Assembly (NCBI GenBank): GCA_020438485.1
Contig: JAGQUM010000004.1
Span: 1 to 33,934, forward strand
Reading direction: 5' to 3'
Origin: Thermoleophilia bacterium
GTDB lineage: Bacteria; Actinomycetota; Thermoleophilia; Miltoncostaeales; Miltoncostaeaceae
Length of the DNA stretch: 33,934 bases
The notes under the pieces are model-generated. The model searched no databases and was not told where the DNA came from. It worked only from the letters and a program-made list of their open reading frames with translations. Both the position numbers and the translations under genes were made by a program. This document shows, piece after piece, positions 2,269-32,751 of the stretch. The first letter of the stretch is position 1. Every line of letters starts with the position of its first letter.

Positions 2269-3027
2269 ATGATGACGGAGTTCTCTGGACAGGTCGCCCT
2301 CGTCACCGGTGGAGTCCGGGGCATGGGCCGTGCCATCGCCGACGCGCTGCTTGAACGCGGCGCCAGGGTGGCGGTGGGGTACTCGCGCAGCTGGACGGCC
2401 GCGGAGGCGTTCGCGGCCGAGCACGGCGCGAGAGGCGTCAGCGTCCACCAGGGGCGCATCGGCGACGCCGACGACTGCGAGCGGGTGGTGAACGAGGTGA
2501 TCGATCGCCACGGGCGCCTGGACATCCTGGTCAACGGCGCCGGCCTGACGGTCGGCCCCGAGGTGGTGCCGGGGTCCGAGGCGTGGACGCGCGCGGTCGA
2601 CACCAACATCGCCGGCGCGTTCGCCATGGCCAACGCGGCGCTGCCGCACATGCTCAACCAGAGGCACGGACGCATCATCGGCATCAGCCCCGCGGGTCCG
2701 TACGATCCGCAACTCAGCGACGCCGCGAGCGCCGTCCAGTTCCGGCTCACCGTCGATCTGGCCGAGCGCGTGGCGGGTCATGGCGTCACCGTCAACTGCA
2801 TCACGCCGGGCGAGCCGTGGCCCCTGCTGCCACCGGGCGGCGAGAACGGTGACCCGCCCGACCCCGCACGGATCGCGCGTGCCGCGGAGGTGACCCGCCT
2901 CGCCATGCTGCTCGCCTCGCCTCACGCCGGGGAGATCAACGGGCAGGTCTACTCGCTCGACGGCGGGCTCAACCTGTGCGTGCGCCGGTCCCAGTCCATG
3001 ACGTTCACGAAACGGAGCACCGCATGA
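2269..3027 (+). CDS. SDR-family protein resembling acetoacetyl-CoA reductase but lacking catalytic Tyr and Lys
   Basis: 252 residues, Rossmann-fold short-chain dehydrogenase. The cofactor motif T-G-G-V-R-G-M-G (13-20), a variant N-A-G motif (V-N-G-A-G-L, 88-93), the D-T-N segment (111-113) and the closing L-D-G-G-L are all present, and position in the PHA operon suggests descent from a PhaB-like reductase. The active-site YxxxK is replaced by A153-S-A-V-Q157, and the usual catalytic Ser position reads S140-P141. Reading continues cleanly through this region, so a frameshift is unlikely. Normal ketoreductase activity is doubtful; a structural or regulatory pseudoenzyme role is inference. The paired ATGs at 2269/2272 follow an AAGGGAGG ribosome site, and the stop overlaps the phaC start (ATGA). 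The FabG at 17641 keeps an intact S-Y-K triad. Confidence 0.8.
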   Translation: MMTEFSGQVALVTGGVRGMGRAIADALLERGARVAVGYSRSWTAAEAFAAEHGARGVSVHQGRIGDADDCERVVNEVIDRHGRLDILVNGAGLTVGPEVVPGSEAWTRAVDTNIAGAFAMANAALPHMLNQRHGRIIGISPAGPYDPQLSDAASAVQFRLTVDLAERVAGHGVTVNCITPGEPWPLLPPGGENGDPPDPARIARAAEVTRLAMLLASPHAGEINGQVYSLDGGLNLCVRRSQSMTFTKRSTA

Positions 3028-5151: not shown

Positions 5152-5523
5152 TTGGCGCAGGACCCATGGAGCGGCCAGGTGGAGGCACTTGGCCGCTTCA
5201 TCCACTCCCAGCGCAAGCTCGCCAACCTGTCGTTGCGCGAGCTTGCCGCGTTGAGCGACCTGTCCAACGCGTACCTCAGCCAGCTCGAGCGCGGGCTGCA
5301 CCAGCCGTCCGTGCGGGTGGTGTCGCAGATCGCCCGGGCGCTGGGGGTCCCGCCGGAGACCATGCTCTCGCAGGCGGGCCTGATGGACGACGCGGGCCGG
5401 GGGCCGGCCGCCGCCGCGCCGCCCGATCCCGTGAGCGCCGCGGACGCCATCCGCGACGACCCCGGCCTCACGGACGCACAGCGCGAGGCGTTGCTGGCCG
5501 TACTGCGTAGCTTCGAGCGCTAG
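5152..5523 (+). CDS. XRE-family helix-turn-helix regulator, probable phasin/PHA regulator
   Basis: 123 residues from a TTG codon at 5152, the start chosen because the domain begins soon after and no ATG or GTG fits as well. The HTH_XRE domain spans about residues 8-66 (L-S-L-R-E-L-A-A-L-S-D-L-S...Y-L-S-Q-L-E-R-G...P-S-V-R-V-V). Residues 70-100 are a disordered Ala/Pro-rich linker, and a short C-terminal helix follows (L-T-D-A-Q-R-E-A-L-L-A-V-L). It is co-transcribed with the phasin. In mycobacteria a HTH gene likewise neighbours the phasin-like adhesin gene hbhA (recalled, not checked). The likely target is the repeat at 4744-4783, giving autoregulation; this is inference. Confidence 0.82.
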   Translation: MAQDPWSGQVEALGRFIHSQRKLANLSLRELAALSDLSNAYLSQLERGLHQPSVRVVSQIARALGVPPETMLSQAGLMDDAGRGPAAAAPPDPVSAADAIRDDPGLTDAQREALLAVLRSFER

Positions 5524-27917: not shown

Positions 27918-28871
27918 ATGATGAGCACGCAGCGATACACGACCCCCGAGCTGAACGGCCGCACCGTCTACAGCGCGGACGGCGAGAAGCTCGGTGATGT
28001 GCAGGGCGTCCTCGAAGACGAGACGGGCACGCCGCAGTACGTGGAGATCAAGAGCGGCTGGTTCGGGGCGAAGCGCCACGCCATCCCGCTCGACGGCCTG
28101 GCGCGCCGCGACGACGGCGACGACCTCGTGGTTCCGTACACGAAGGCGCAGCTCGAGAACGCGCCGATGCTCGACGAGAACGACGACCTCACCTACGACG
28201 GCGAGCGGACGATGGGCGCGTATTACGGCACGGACGTGCGCGAGTGGGACGACACCCGGGACCGGTGGCTTCCCGAGGAAGACCTCAGCCGGGGTCCCAC
28301 GCCGGAGACCCGCCACCCCGACGGCGCCCGCGACCTCGAAACCGACATCACGCAGGGCCCCACGCCCGAGACCCGCGACGCCATCCGCGCGACCAGCGGC
28401 GACCCCGGCGCGGCCGGCCAGCCACAGGCCGACCCCCACACCCGTTCGGACATCGTCACCCCCGGGGACGACGAGCGGGGCGGATACGCGGCCCCCGCAT
28501 CGCAGGAGGACGCGCGCGGTCGCACCGCGCACGACCCGGGCATGCGGGACGACCCCGCCGTGCACGACACGGGCGAGATCGCCCCGGTGGGCTCAGGCGC
28601 GGCGGACGGTGTGCGGAACCGCGACATGCGCGACACGGGCATGCGCGATGACCCCGCGGTTTCCCGTGGCCACGAGGAGCGCATGCGGGACCCCGAGGGC
28701 GGGGTTCAGGGCGACCACCGGACGGACGACGAGCACGCCCGGGACGACCGGACCACGCCCGCCGAGCGCCGGGACGCCACCCGCGGCGACCACGAGCCCG
28801 ACCGGGAAAGCGTCGCGGACGAGATGCGCCGCCGCCTGCGCCGCTGGCGCGAGGACGACCCGGCGCGCTGA
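27918..28871 (+). CDS. PRC-barrel protein with long charged repetitive tail
   Basis: 317 residues; the ATG at 27918 is immediately followed by a second ATG, either of which may be used. Residues about 8-85 are a PRC-barrel (G-R-T-V-Y-S-A-D-G-E-K-L-G-D-V; Y-V-E-I-K-S-G-W-F; I-P-L-D-G-L), a fold found in stress proteins, RimM and photosynthetic reaction centre subunits. The remaining ~200 residues are acidic and basic, disordered, and internally repetitive: G-P-T-P-E-T-R occurs twice (near 128 and 150) and G-M-R-D-D-P-A-V twice (near 212 and 240), ending in an Arg-rich helix. No signal peptide is present. Proteins of this type are common in actinobacteria and deinococci and are usually tied to stress, but the function is unknown. 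Confidence 0.8.
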   Translation: MMSTQRYTTPELNGRTVYSADGEKLGDVQGVLEDETGTPQYVEIKSGWFGAKRHAIPLDGLARRDDGDDLVVPYTKAQLENAPMLDENDDLTYDGERTMGAYYGTDVREWDDTRDRWLPEEDLSRGPTPETRHPDGARDLETDITQGPTPETRDAIRATSGDPGAAGQPQADPHTRSDIVTPGDDERGGYAAPASQEDARGRTAHDPGMRDDPAVHDTGEIAPVGSGAADGVRNRDMRDTGMRDDPAVSRGHEERMRDPEGGVQGDHRTDDEHARDDRTTPAERRDATRGDHEPDRESVADEMRRRLRRWREDDPAR

Positions 28872-28879
28872 CGCGCCAC

Positions 28880-28910
28880 CGCGGTGGGCGGCGCCGGGCC
28901 GCCCACCGCG
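28880..28910. terminator. Strong bidirectional terminator hairpin
   Basis: Two perfect 13-bp arms, CGCGGTGGGCGGC at 28880-28892 and its complement at 28898-28910, flank a 5-nt loop. The right arm ends exactly at the stop codon of the minus-strand gene. A second pair, CTGACGCG at 28868-28875 and CGCGTCAG at 28907-28914, includes the stop codons of both convergent genes. There is no T-tract. Confidence 0.75.
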
Positions 28911-29447
28911 TCAGTCACGCTCGAACTGTTCCTTGGCGAACACCAGGCGGGCGCGATACGCGCACTCGGCGAGGGACGCGAGCTTTGCCGCCACGATCTC
29001 CTCGGGCAGTTCGTGCATGCCCGGCGTCGACACCACCCACAGGCCGGACGGCGCGAGATCGCGCGCGATATCGACGATGTCGCGCGCGACCACGTTGGGG
29101 TCCTCCACGACGGCCGACGTGCCCTCGATGAGGGCGACGACGGCCTCGTCCGGCGCCACGCGGTAGACGCCGGCCGGCACCGCCGCGTCGGTCTCGAACA
29201 GCACCGCACCCGCCTCCACGAGCGCGGCGACGTCGCCGGGGCGCGCCTTGACGGGCCGGAACGGCACGGCGTCCCGCGCCGCCCGCCATGTGTCCGGCGT
29301 GTCCGCGTCGGCGCCGCTCGCCACCACGTCCACGCCGGCCGCGAGCAGCCGCGGCGCCCACGACGGCGGGCCGGGCAGATGGCCCAGCGCCATCGTGGCC
29401 AGCACGGGCAGGTGGATACCCAGACGGTCCAGTTCCTCGCGCCTCAC
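28911..29447 (-). CDS. Hypothetical protein, weakly like the end of a MetE/UROD-type barrel
   Basis: 178 residues from GTG 29447, chosen because a CAGACT -10-like box lies 6 nt ahead and no ribosome site is present. Codon use is native, with strong G/C third positions. The sequence alternates strands and helices (A-G-V-D-V-V-A-S-G-A; A-G-A-V-L-F-E-T-D), and its end, S-T-P-G-M-H-E-L-P-E-E-I-V-A-A-K-L, recalls the last strand and helix of cobalamin-independent methionine synthase/UROD-like TIM barrels. At 178 residues it is about half a barrel. No catalytic Cys or His cluster is visible, so the function is unassigned. Confidence 0.6.
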   Translation of the reverse strand: MRREELDRLGIHLPVLATMALGHLPGPPSWAPRLLAAGVDVVASGADADTPDTWRAARDAVPFRPVKARPGDVAALVEAGAVLFETDAAVPAGVYRVAPDEAVVALIEGTSAVVEDPNVVARDIVDIARDLAPSGLWVVSTPGMHELPEEIVAAKLASLAECAYRARLVFAKEQFERD

Positions 29448-29459
29448 GCCGTGAGTCTG
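29443..29459 (-). promoter_or_regulatory. Leaderless -10 box and palindrome over the start of the 178-residue gene
   Basis: On the minus strand CAGACT (29459-29454) is followed by 6 nt and the GTG at 29447. CTCACG-C-CGTGAG (29443-29455) is a perfect palindrome covering both the edge of the -10 box and the start codon, so a bound protein would block transcription start. Confidence 0.45.
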
Positions 29460-29986
29460 GCAGACCGGGGTCCGGTTCTCCCTCGCCACCCGGATGCCGG
29501 GCGAACCGGAGCTCCCGTACCCGGCGCCTCGGACAGCATGTCGCGGACGGCACCGGCACGGCCACCAACCCGGGCATCGACATCGATGGGCGCTCGGGGC
29601 CGGGTACGGCGCCACCGGGCCGGACGCCGACGGCCGGTCCGCCAGCCTCCCGGCGGGCCACCACGCATCGGCCTCACATGCGCGTTCACGGACCCGGCGC
29701 CATGCCGTTCCGCGGCCCGCGGCGAGCGGAACCGGTCGCGACCCGGGCATCACCGTGAGCGACGCGGGCGCGTTCGCCGCCGTCCAGGCGGGGCGATTGC
29801 CGCGACGGGCCTTGACGATCTGTGGCTGGCTCCCGCATGCCGCGGCCCCGGCGCGACCCGCGACGCACGCCGACGCGTCCACCGTGCGGGCCCGGGCGAC
29901 GGTCCGCGTCGTGGCCGCCCCGGCCCGCGTGACGCCGTCCTGCAGCGGCTTATCCCCGTGTTCCATGGGGCCACTACGATGGCCCC
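29448..29986. other. Gene-poor intergenic stretch of about 540 bp
   Basis: The region lies between the minus-strand 178-residue gene and the permease gene. Open frames exist on both strands, but their translations are Arg/Pro/Gly-rich, lack recognisable motifs and have no ribosome site. It holds the divergent promoters, the nested repeat at 29472-29509 and the inverted repeat at 29963-29990. Nothing else is identified. Confidence 0.6.
29472..29509. repeat. Nested inverted repeat upstream of the 178-residue gene
   Basis: CCGGTTC (29472-29478) and GAACCGG (29503-29509) enclose a second inverted repeat, CCCGG-ATG-CCGGG (29489-29501). It lies about 13-50 bp upstream of the -10 box of the minus-strand gene, in the region where a regulator could bind. 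The function is unknown. Confidence 0.5.
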
Positions 29987-29990
29987 ATGG
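29963..29990 (+). promoter_or_regulatory. Inverted repeat enclosing the -10 box and start codon of the permease gene
   Basis: CCATGGGGCC (29963-29972) and GGCCCCATGG (29981-29990) are perfect 10-bp arms around an 8-nt spacer. The spacer contains TACGAT (29975-29980), a TANNNT -10 box 6 nt before the ATG at 29987, and the ATG itself lies in the right arm. A regulator bound here would cover the whole start of a leaderless gene. Confidence 0.65.
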
Positions 29991-31150
29991 AGGCCCGCCG
30001 CGTGGACGTCTGGTGGAAGCGGGCCGGACCCTGGGTGGGCATCGGCACGAGTCCCGCCGCGCTGATGGCGGGCGGGGGGCTGGCCGAGGGACTCGAGGGC
30101 GCGACGCTGGCCGCCACCCTCCTGACCGGGGTGGCGGCGCTGTGCGCGCTGGCCACCGCCCAGGGCATCGTGGGTCAGCGACGCGGCGGGACGCTGGTGA
30201 GCGTGCTCGAGGCGCCGCTCGGGACGATGGGCGCGCGCCGCGTCGCCGGCGCCGTGATGGCGCTGATGATGCTGGGGTGGTTCGGCGTGAACGTCGACGC
30301 CGCGGGCACCGCCGCGGCCCGGCTGGCGGGGGTGCCGCCCACCGCGGGCGTCGTCGCGTTCGCCGTGCTGGCGCTGGCGGTGACGGTGCGGGGCGTGGGA
30401 CAGCTGTCGGCCGCGGCCCTGGTCGCCGGGCTCGCCACGACGGCGCTCGCGCTGTGGAGCGCAGCCCTGCTCATCCGTCACGGCGACGTGGCGTTCGCGT
30501 CGCCACACACGGCCACCGACCCCATCTCGCCCCTGCACGGCGTGGGCCTGATGGTGGGCTACGGCGCCGCGTTCGCGCTGCGCACGCCCGACTTCACCGC
30601 CGACCTGGCCCGGGCCCGCCACGTGGTGATGTGTGCCGTGTGGGGCCTGGCAGTCCCGCTGGCCGCGTTCGCCTCCCTCGGCGCGGCCGCCTACGCGTCC
30701 ACCGGGACCTGGCACGTGGCGCAGATGTGGGGCCGGCTCGGCAGCGACCGCCTGGGGTACGCCATCATCGCGGTCGGCTTCTTCGGGTCCGTGATGACGA
30801 ACCTGTTCTCGGGTGCGCTGGCCACGGCGTCGGCCACCCGCGCGCGGCCCGCCGTGGCCATGGGGGCGTTCTTCGCCGGCGGCCTCGCGCTGGCCGTCGC
30901 GGGGCTGGCGGACCACATGCTGGATTACCTGGTGCTGATGGCCGTCGCCGCCCCGGGGCTCATCGCGCTGTGCGTGATCGGGCGACGCGCGCCCGTGCGG
31001 CGTTGGAGCGGACCCGGCCTGGCGGCGTGGGGCCTGTCCATCGCCGCCGGGCTCGTCGCCGCCCGCGTCGTGCCCGCACTGGCCCTGCCCGCAGCCCTCG
31101 TGGTCTCCGCGGCCGTCTACGGAGGCGCGCGGCGGCGCCGACCGGGATAA
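29987..31150 (+). CDS. Polytopic membrane transporter, NCS1 (cytosine permease CodB)-like
   Basis: 387 residues with about 11-12 hydrophobic helices. The segment G-W-F-G-V-N-V-D-A-A-G (about 99-109) and the cytoplasmic D-F-T-A-D-L-A-R-A (about 205-213) resemble conserved motifs of NCS1 nucleobase permeases such as CodB; the overall length and the early amphipathic helix (W-W-K-R-A-G-P-W-V-G) also fit. The likely substrate is a nucleobase or a related compound taken up with a cation, but the similarity is distant. No catabolic partner gene adjoins it. The start codon lies 6 nt after a TACGAT box, so translation is probably leaderless. Its stop overlaps a GATAAT that may serve pckA. Confidence 0.7.
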   Translation: MEARRVDVWWKRAGPWVGIGTSPAALMAGGGLAEGLEGATLAATLLTGVAALCALATAQGIVGQRRGGTLVSVLEAPLGTMGARRVAGAVMALMMLGWFGVNVDAAGTAAARLAGVPPTAGVVAFAVLALAVTVRGVGQLSAAALVAGLATTALALWSAALLIRHGDVAFASPHTATDPISPLHGVGLMVGYGAAFALRTPDFTADLARARHVVMCAVWGLAVPLAAFASLGAAAYASTGTWHVAQMWGRLGSDRLGYAIIAVGFFGSVMTNLFSGALATASATRARPAVAMGAFFAGGLALAVAGLADHMLDYLVLMAVAAPGLIALCVIGRRAPVRRWSGPGLAAWGLSIAAGLVAARVVPALALPAALVVSAAVYGGARRRRPG

Positions 31151-31151
31151 T
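31146..31151 (+). promoter_or_regulatory. Possible -10 box for pckA
   Basis: GATAAT overlaps the permease stop codon and lies 43 nt before the pckA ATG, leaving room for the AAAGGA ribosome site. No -35 consensus is visible at 16-18 bp upstream. Confidence 0.4.
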
Positions 31152-31194
31152 GGGGTCGCGCTCAGGGGGACGAGCCCACCGACGAAAGGAACAC

Positions 31195-32751
31195 ATGACC
31201 ACGCTGGATCCTTCCGCCCTGTCCACCCACGGGATCACGCCGGCAGGAGTCGTGTGGCGCAACCTGTCGCCCGAGTCGCTGTACGAGCACACGCTGAACG
31301 AGGGCACCGGCCGGATGGCCCACGGCGGGTCCCTGCTGGTCACCACCGGCAAGCACACCGGCCGCGCTCCGAAGGACAAGTTCATCGTGCGCGAACCGTC
31401 CAGCGAGGACCGCATCGACTGGGGTCCGGTCAACCAGGAGATCTCGCAGGAGAAGGCGGACCTCATCGCCGGGGACCTCCGCGGCCACCTGAGCGCCGCG
31501 AAGGCGCTGTACGTCGTGGACGCCCGGGTGGGCGCCGACCTCGAGCACAGCACCAACGTGCGCGTCGTGACCGAGAGCCCGTGGCACGCGCTGTTCGCGC
31601 GGACCATGTTCATCGTGCTCACCCCGGAGGAGCAGGAGGCGTTCACACCGGACGCCGTGATCCTGCACGCGCCGTCGTTCCAGGCCGACCCGGCCACCCA
31701 CGGTACGAACAACCCCAACTTCGTGGTGCTCAACCCCGGCACGTCCGAGGTGTTCATCGGCGGCACGCAGTACGCCGGCGAGATCAAGAAGTCGGCGTTC
31801 TCGCTCATGAACGACCGGCTGCCCGAGGAGGGCGTGCTGCCCATGCACTGCTCGGCCAACGTGGGCGACGACGGATCGGTGGCGGTGTTCTTCGGCCTGT
31901 CCGGCACGGGCAAGACCACGCTGTCGACCGACTCCACGCGCCCGCTGATCGGCGACGACGAGCACGGCTGGGGGTCGAACGGCGTGTTCAACATCGAGGG
32001 CGGCTGTTACGCCAAGATCATCAACCTGTCGCCCGAGGCCGAGCCCGAGATCTACGCGACCACGCGGATGTTCGGCACGGTCATCGAGAATGCCATCGCC
32101 GACGACGACACGCGCATCCTCGACCTCGACGACGACAGCCTCACCGAGAACACCCGGGCGGCGTACCCGCTGGAGTCGGTGCCCAACTCGGTCGAGTCCA
32201 AGCAGGCCGGCCATCCCTCCGTGGTGGTCATGCTGACGGCCGACGCGTTCGGCGTGCTGCCCCCCATCGCGAAGCTGTCGCCCGAGCAGGCCATGGAGAT
32301 GTTCCTGGCCGGGTACACGGCCCGCGTCGCGGGCACCGAGGTGGGCGTCACCGAGCCGCAGGCCACGTTCAGCACGTGCTTCGGCGCCCCGTTCCTGCCG
32401 CAGCGTCCGCGCGTGTACGCCGACATGCTGGGTGAGCGCATCAAGGACCACGACGTCTCGGTGTGGCTGGTGAACACCGGGTGGACCGGCGGGCCGTACG
32501 GCGAGGGCCACCGCATGCCCATCAAGACCACCCGCGCCCTCGTCCGCGCCGCCGTGTCGGGCAAGCTCAACGACGCCCCCACCCGTACGGATGAGAACTT
32601 CGGCTTCGAGGTGCCCACCGAGGTGCCCGACGCGGACAACAGCCTGCTGGACCCGCGCGCCACGTGGAAGGACCCGTCGCACTACGACGAGAAGGCCCAG
32701 AAGCTGGCCTCCGACATCAAGGACGCGGCCGCGAAGGCCCGCCAGCGCTAG
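31195..32751 (+). CDS. pckA: Phosphoenolpyruvate carboxykinase, ATP-dependent
   Basis: 518 residues. It converts oxaloacetate plus ATP to PEP, CO2 and ADP, the entry step of gluconeogenesis. The P-loop G-L-S-G-T-G-K240-T-T is the ATP-type signature, and G-G-T-Q-Y-A-G-E-I-K-K-S, M-H-C-S-A-N-V-G and N-T-G-W-T-G-G are all conserved. The N-terminus has the H-T-G-R-A-P-K-D-K segment. The ATG follows AAAGGA by 4 nt. The C-terminus ends in a short Lys/Ala-rich helix. Classical actinomycetes use the unrelated-length GTP enzyme (~600 residues), so this form is of taxonomic interest. It is followed by a hairpin. Confidence 0.97.
   Translation: MTTLDPSALSTHGITPAGVVWRNLSPESLYEHTLNEGTGRMAHGGSLLVTTGKHTGRAPKDKFIVREPSSEDRIDWGPVNQEISQEKADLIAGDLRGHLSAAKALYVVDARVGADLEHSTNVRVVTESPWHALFARTMFIVLTPEEQEAFTPDAVILHAPSFQADPATHGTNNPNFVVLNPGTSEVFIGGTQYAGEIKKSAFSLMNDRLPEEGVLPMHCSANVGDDGSVAVFFGLSGTGKTTLSTDSTRPLIGDDEHGWGSNGVFNIEGGCYAKIINLSPEAEPEIYATTRMFGTVIENAIADDDTRILDLDDDSLTENTRAAYPLESVPNSVESKQAGHPSVVVMLTADAFGVLPPIAKLSPEQAMEMFLAGYTARVAGTEVGVTEPQATFSTCFGAPFLPQRPRVYADMLGERIKDHDVSVWLVNTGWTGGPYGEGHRMPIKTTRALVRAAVSGKLNDAPTRTDENFGFEVPTEVPDADNSLLDPRATWKDPSHYDEKAQKLASDIKDAAAKARQR

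Follow-up and report, generated by a model that had tools for sequence, protein, structure and literature searches.

Does the palindrome that encloses both the -10 box and the start codon of a permease gene act as a regulatory switch for that gene, or does it belong to something upstream? The site lies in the window, the whole 33,934-nt stretch of Thermoleophilia DNA that was analysed. A sequence-only reading of this DNA had taken it for a tight ligand-controlled switch of nucleobase-type uptake, able to block transcription initiation and, as RNA, ribosome access. As set out below, the palindrome looks more like the stop signal of a neighbouring gene, or a guard against read-through, than like a ligand-sensing switch.

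The inverted repeat and the presumed leaderless start

The inverted repeat is real and exact, though larger than first described: the arms are not 10 bp at 29963-29990 but 12 bp each at 29962-29991, with TCCATGGGGCCA on the left, TGGCCCCATGGA on the right and the loop CTACGA between them (Table 1). As had been noted, the arms enclose TACGAT, the last T of which already belongs to the right arm, and the ATG (29987-29989) lies within that arm. The site was matched once in the window and in none of 100 shuffles, and 12 bp were reached in none of 4000 shuffles of the letters on its left side. Hairpins of this size are in themselves common in the genome, with 15 (arms of at least 12 bp, loop 3-8) in 391 kb, or about 1 per 26 kb, where three Markov resamples average 1.0; the unusual part is the placement on a leaderless start. 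Among 140 leaderless starts sampled in two genomes, the window permease alone has arms of at least 10 bp across the -10 box (1 of 80 in the window's own genome), in a sample whose gene calls follow a GC3-based open reading frame rule that missed the permease of the congener G001.

Table 1. Coordinates of the palindrome and of the features around it in the window.
Feature	Position	Strand	Remarks
Hairpin of 13 bp, no U-tract	28880..28910	.	Separates the gene at 28911-29447 from a convergent PRC-barrel gene; illustrates the terminator-like hairpins of this genome
Gene for a 178-aa protein, no Pfam match	28911..29447	-	Next to the permease at 12 of the 13 orthologous loci
No recognisable gene, about 500 nt	29448..29961	+	Co-directional DUF11-type gene here in the congener; the DNA weakly resembles the last part of that gene
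Left arm of the inverted repeat	29962..29973	+	Upstream of the -10 box; would lie outside the permease's own leaderless mRNA
Loop of 6 nt, CTACGA	29974..29979	+	
-10 box TACGAT	29975..29980	+	Ends 6 nt before the ATG; spacing TANNNT-N6/8-ATG or GTG shared by 10 of 13 orthologous loci
Right arm of the palindrome, with the start codon	29980..29991	+	
NCS1-type (CodB-like) permease gene, 387 aa	29987..31150	+	ATG at 29987
pckA, ATP-dependent PEP carboxykinase	31195..32751	+	Next gene downstream of the permease

The sequence TACGAT-N6-ATG places a -10 element at the spacing at which the start codon itself is +1. In a sample of the window's genome, TANNNT stands at gaps of 6-8 nt before 41 of 5107 in-frame ATG or GTG codons, against 0-4 for each other gap from 0 to 19, and a sample of G001 shows a similar enrichment 6-8 nt before starts. 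The same layout, with TANNNT-N6 or N8 before ATG or GTG, is kept in 10 of 13 orthologous permease loci; the remaining three are those of G008, G017 and G014, and in the first two the permease lies directly behind a co-directional gene. From this enrichment and this conserved layout, transcription of the permease most likely starts at the ATG, in agreement with the sequence-only reading, which had called the gene leaderless. A start there would leave the left arm out of the permease's own mRNA, and the proposed block of ribosome access by folded RNA would not apply to that mRNA: only transcripts started upstream could fold. Leaderless genes of mycobacteria, as presented in PMC4633059, likewise have the start codon at the presumed +1, and differ in belonging to another lineage; the leaderless start described here is presumed from sequence. 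Within 29989-30004, a GGAGG (29989-29993) that overlaps the ATG is followed 8 nt on by a GTG in frame, codon 6 of the gene. Together they form a possible alternative, leadered start; it is not kept in G001, where codon 6 is GTC.

The permease and its orthologues

The permease holds as an NCS1 (CodB-like) transporter of the Thermoleophilia family that includes Miltoncostaea. Orthologues were found in 12 of the 100 relatives searched, all within that family; together with the genome of the window this makes 13 of the 42 genomes of the family. A profile of 11 aligned permeases matches the cytosine permease of known structure, 7qoa (E 3.8e-13). Additionally, PF02133 is found in 6 of these 11 proteins at E values up to 1 (best 2e-11), and the window protein on its own gave no PF02133 match. 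The nucleobase-type permease of the sequence-only reading is thereby supported by profile, the substrate being putative. The adjoining 178-aa protein may be MetE-like. In G008 and G017 its gene precedes the permease in the same direction. The protein may point to the permease substrate.

Dyads across the orthologous promoters

Comparison of the upstream regions of orthologous permeases had been suggested earlier, with arms not conserved among relatives counting against the ligand switch. As sequence, the arms of the window are absent from the nine other orthologues that have their own promoter. As a structure, arms of at least 10 bp across the promoter are absent from 8 of the 10 promoter-bearing orthologues and present in the window and in G001, the sole other genome of the genus that was compared. 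There, CGGGGGGTCTCC and GGAGACCCCCCG stand 23 nt apart and enclose GGCCA-ATACCA-TGGCC, giving a hairpin of 12+5 bp that encloses TACCAT and has its centre within half a base of the window's. In G001, too, 12 bp were reached in none of 4000 left-side shuffles, and when left halves were combined with right halves of other orthologues (90 swaps), the longest arms were 8 bp. Only the inner GGCCA/TGGCC is common to the two congeners. Being identical in both, these inner 5 bp are uninformative on pairing; the outer arms show no relationship to each other and differ in register, which reads as structure kept and sequence changed, not as column-wise covariation. In this comparison the two congeners amount to one lineage.

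The predicted RNA folds have z scores of -3.3 for the window and -4.7 for G001. The fold energy of G001 (-38.7) is below those of all 60 leaderless starts sampled in that genome, and that of the window (-31.6) is at the 5% quantile of its 80. The orthologue in G010, which has a divergent neighbour, shows a 9-bp dyad (P 0.023) with a fold z of +0.8 and is not counted as support. A search of Rfam with 28800-31300 returned one match (E 0.94), under its gathering score and outside the palindrome.

Hairpins after stop codons

Seven of the eight promoter-bearing orthologues without arms of at least 10 bp have a divergent upstream gene, and the eighth is G007. The lack of such arms next to divergent neighbours (9 bp at most, in G010) fits a hairpin that belongs to the upstream gene. 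In G001 this gene is intact and co-directional with the permease: it encodes 701 aa with Big_8, DUF11 and DUF7507 domains (L018:855-2960). Its stop codon is at 2958-2960; after a gap of 7 nt the hairpin (2968-3014) follows, with the permease ATG at 3001.

Such a placement is frequent in both genomes. Among hairpins with arms of at least 11 bp and a loop of 3-10, 18 of 45 in the window's genome and 17 of 34 in the congener stand just after stop codons, and the 8 nt to each side of these contain no more than 3 T. Furthermore, tails of DUF11-type genes were compared across 12 loci (11 of 20 family loci plus L123), where 13 tails with a common C-terminal motif were searched for perfect arms with a loop of up to 12 nt. 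Eight of the 13 have a perfect hairpin of 9-17 bp that starts 5-37 nt after the stop, is equalled in 0 or 1 of 200 shuffles and has no more than 4 T in the 8 nt behind it. The other five, including the G001 permease neighbour under the loop limit of 12 nt, have no such perfect hairpin. A canonical (L-shaped) terminator with a U-tract was sought in 29400-31300, and no terminator-like site was found there. Termination without a U-tract is disputed: by its title, a 2014 study by Czyz, listed in PMC12288462, is said to find that the U-tract is needed.

Hairpins of 13 bp without a U-tract also occur at convergent gene borders in both congeners (window 28880-28910 and G001 L060:8004-8036). The two are not counterparts, the G001 hairpin lying between a different convergent gene pair; behind the G001 counterpart of the gene at 28911-29447, only 5 bp pair.

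Upstream of the palindrome in the window no gene is recognisable, and a decayed DUF11-type gene in 29448-29961 was considered and not retained. The tblastn hits reach 33 bits, little more than the up to 29 bits of 5 shuffles. A DUF11-type protein profile finds nothing in 29464-29990: its -3.7 bits are equalled or exceeded by 183 of 200 shuffled sequences and by 264 of 300 background pieces. At the DNA level, comparison with the end of the G001 gene over 60, 100, 140 and 200 nt was matched by 120, 19, 3 and 39 of 500 shuffles, respectively, and a local alignment by 3 of 200. This similarity, at one of four lengths and locally, is suggestive at best. The window hairpin may have been inherited from a time when an upstream gene was present, or it may have another role.

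A proposed terminator with a promoter nested in it

The reading tentatively preferred here, at somewhat short of an even chance, is that of a terminator-type hairpin with a second role, as a guard of the permease against read-through, and with the leaderless promoter nested in it. The GC-rich, U-less hairpin would serve as the terminator of an upstream co-directional gene, with the -10 box of the permease in its loop and the start codon in its 3ʹ arm. RNA derived from upstream would fold into the hairpin, and the polymerase would stop, the permease start would be hidden from ribosomes, or both. RNA from the permease's own promoter would begin at the ATG, lack the left arm and be free for translation. 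We infer a terminating or silencing role for the hairpin, and the former presence of a co-directional gene upstream in the window.

Folding predictions separate the two congeners in this respect. For the window, the predicted probability that the AUG is unpaired is 0.83 in the permease's own RNA and 0.001 in read-through RNA, a value in the lowest 5% of 80 starts, though not unique among them. For G001 the corresponding values are 0.79 and 0.67, owing to the position of its AUG in the internal loop. The start codon is thus predicted to be hidden in the window, but not clearly so in G001, in which termination would be the main effect.

The fuller claim, that one element of 30 bp in the window and 47 bp in the congener is at once an upstream terminator, a read-through guard and a leaderless promoter whose mRNA escapes the guard, is doubtful. 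If it is true, it would show how compact, high-GC genomes insulate tandem genes: a leaderless gene can start within its neighbour's terminator, since its mRNA needs nothing 5ʹ of the ATG. It would also mean that palindromes over leaderless promoters are easily mistaken for repressor sites.

Parts of the arrangement have precedents. The transposases of IS10 and IS50 are protected from external transcription by a hairpin arm that is present only in read-through RNA. The logic of the arm would be the same here, where no transposase or insertion sequence was identified. In bacteriophage T4, according to PMC3014915, the start codon or ribosome site of gene e (lysozyme), soc, 49 and I-TevI lies in a hairpin of the early RNA, which RNA from the late promoter escapes. 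For gene e and I-TevI the late promoter is placed within the hairpin's 5ʹ strand or beside it; both arms are present only in RNA that was started upstream, as would be the case here. The present locus differs from the gene e type by its bacterial chromosome, its presumed leaderless start, the lack of a phage early/late programme and a silencing that is so far putative. U-less, "I-shaped" terminators occur within 50 bp of stop codons in mycobacteria, as reported in PMC12288462. Like those, the G001 element and 8 of the 13 DUF11-type tails have a strong GC-rich stem soon after the stop and no U-tract. Unlike those terminators, the element in the window has no intact upstream gene, it holds the next gene's promoter and start codon, and its role in termination is presumptive. 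The passages of PMC5006887 that were searched contain nothing on read-through. A narrow search of open literature on leaderless promoters and overlapping terminators did not show the arrangement as a whole in the titles and abstract beginnings of the papers listed, and no claim of first description is made.

Rival readings: chance, operator and cruciform

The same palindrome might have arisen by chance, the DNA being GC-rich, or be a relic that no longer has a function, which is judged rather unlikely. Hairpins of this kind are frequent in the genome, most of the orthologous promoters (8 of 10) do without a dyad of at least 10 bp, and lone dyads come and go: one of 8 bp (L114:3561-3586), around the -10 box of what is presumably a YchF-like GTPase gene of this genome, is absent from its 95% identical congener. 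Against this, both congeners have 12-bp arms enclosing the same -10 box, and in neither case do 4000 shuffles do as well. Moreover, a swap control expects only 0.05 starts with at least 12 bp among 140 (loop up to 30), a figure to be read with the fact that the site was picked from the whole window.

The sequence-only reading had placed a block of transcription initiation here, and a dimeric repressor bound to the palindrome, and thereby covering the -10 box and the start point, would exclude polymerase in just this way. A perfect dyad centred on a -10 box is a classical place for such a protein, and the congeners have the core GGCCA-N6-TGGCC around TACNA in common. An operator is nevertheless unlikely, given that the outer arms differ between the congeners and that the eight other promoter-bearing orthologues have no arms of at least 10 bp. 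Neither is the site repeated. The own genome holds no second one (22 fixed letters, up to 3 mismatches). A regulon of the palindrome was rejected on the same search, which in 100 relatives gave two places with 3 mismatches, neither at a permease orthologue. The core GGCCA-N6-TGGCC by itself occurs 9 times in a 749-kb sample, this site included. No transcription factor is recognisable among the four neighbour genes scanned from 27918 to the window end, one of which has no Pfam match. A DNA-binding repressor may nevertheless act at the site. As sequence, the full arms are neither conserved among the orthologues nor repeated in the genome, and the tight ligand-controlled switch finds no backing in a second site, in a regulator among the four neighbours or in the arms of the nine orthologues. 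At 5152-5523 (+), 25 kb from the permease and among genes of polyester-storage type, the window encodes a small protein that presumably resembles a helix-turn-helix regulator.

A supercoil-driven cruciform or DNA hairpin that opens or closes the promoter is highly improbable: with 12 bp and a loop of 6 nt the palindrome could extrude, and strong pairing is kept while the arms differ, but in G001 an internal loop separates the 12 bp from the 5 bp.

One locus or a class

Dyads at leaderless starts in general were also considered as a class, which was rejected, as there is no clear excess over expectation. In the first samples, arms of at least 9 bp were found at 1 of 41 starts in G000 (1.0 expected) and at 2 of 30 in G001 (0.4 expected). 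The swap control on 140 starts (80 + 60) gave 4 with arms of at least 7 bp against 1.3 expected and 2 with at least 8 bp against 0.5 when the loop was up to 10; with a loop of up to 16, there were 2 with at least 9 bp against 0.3. Among tandem leaderless starts sampled, 0 of 33 had arms of at least 9 bp, the G001 permease being missed by the gene rule. The 8-bp dyad at the presumed YchF-like gene does not extend the class either: it is not kept in the congener, in a comparison confined to the 6 of 30 loci at which the motif located the start, the 24 without a match being left out. With arms of at least 10 bp at 1 of 140 starts, and with the YchF-like case absent from its congener, the dyad over a leaderless promoter is one locus and not a class.

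In L145 (G015), a 16-bp hairpin with no recognisable -10 box fills the gap between a stop codon and the ATG of a presumed YchF-like gene. The DUF11/Big-type proteins of the family at L018:855-2960, L081, L092, L123, L082, L083, L084, L085, L090, L093, L094 and L097 share a C-terminal motif, often P-A-V-T-G and in some P-S-P-A-G, which is possibly an anchor or sorting signal.
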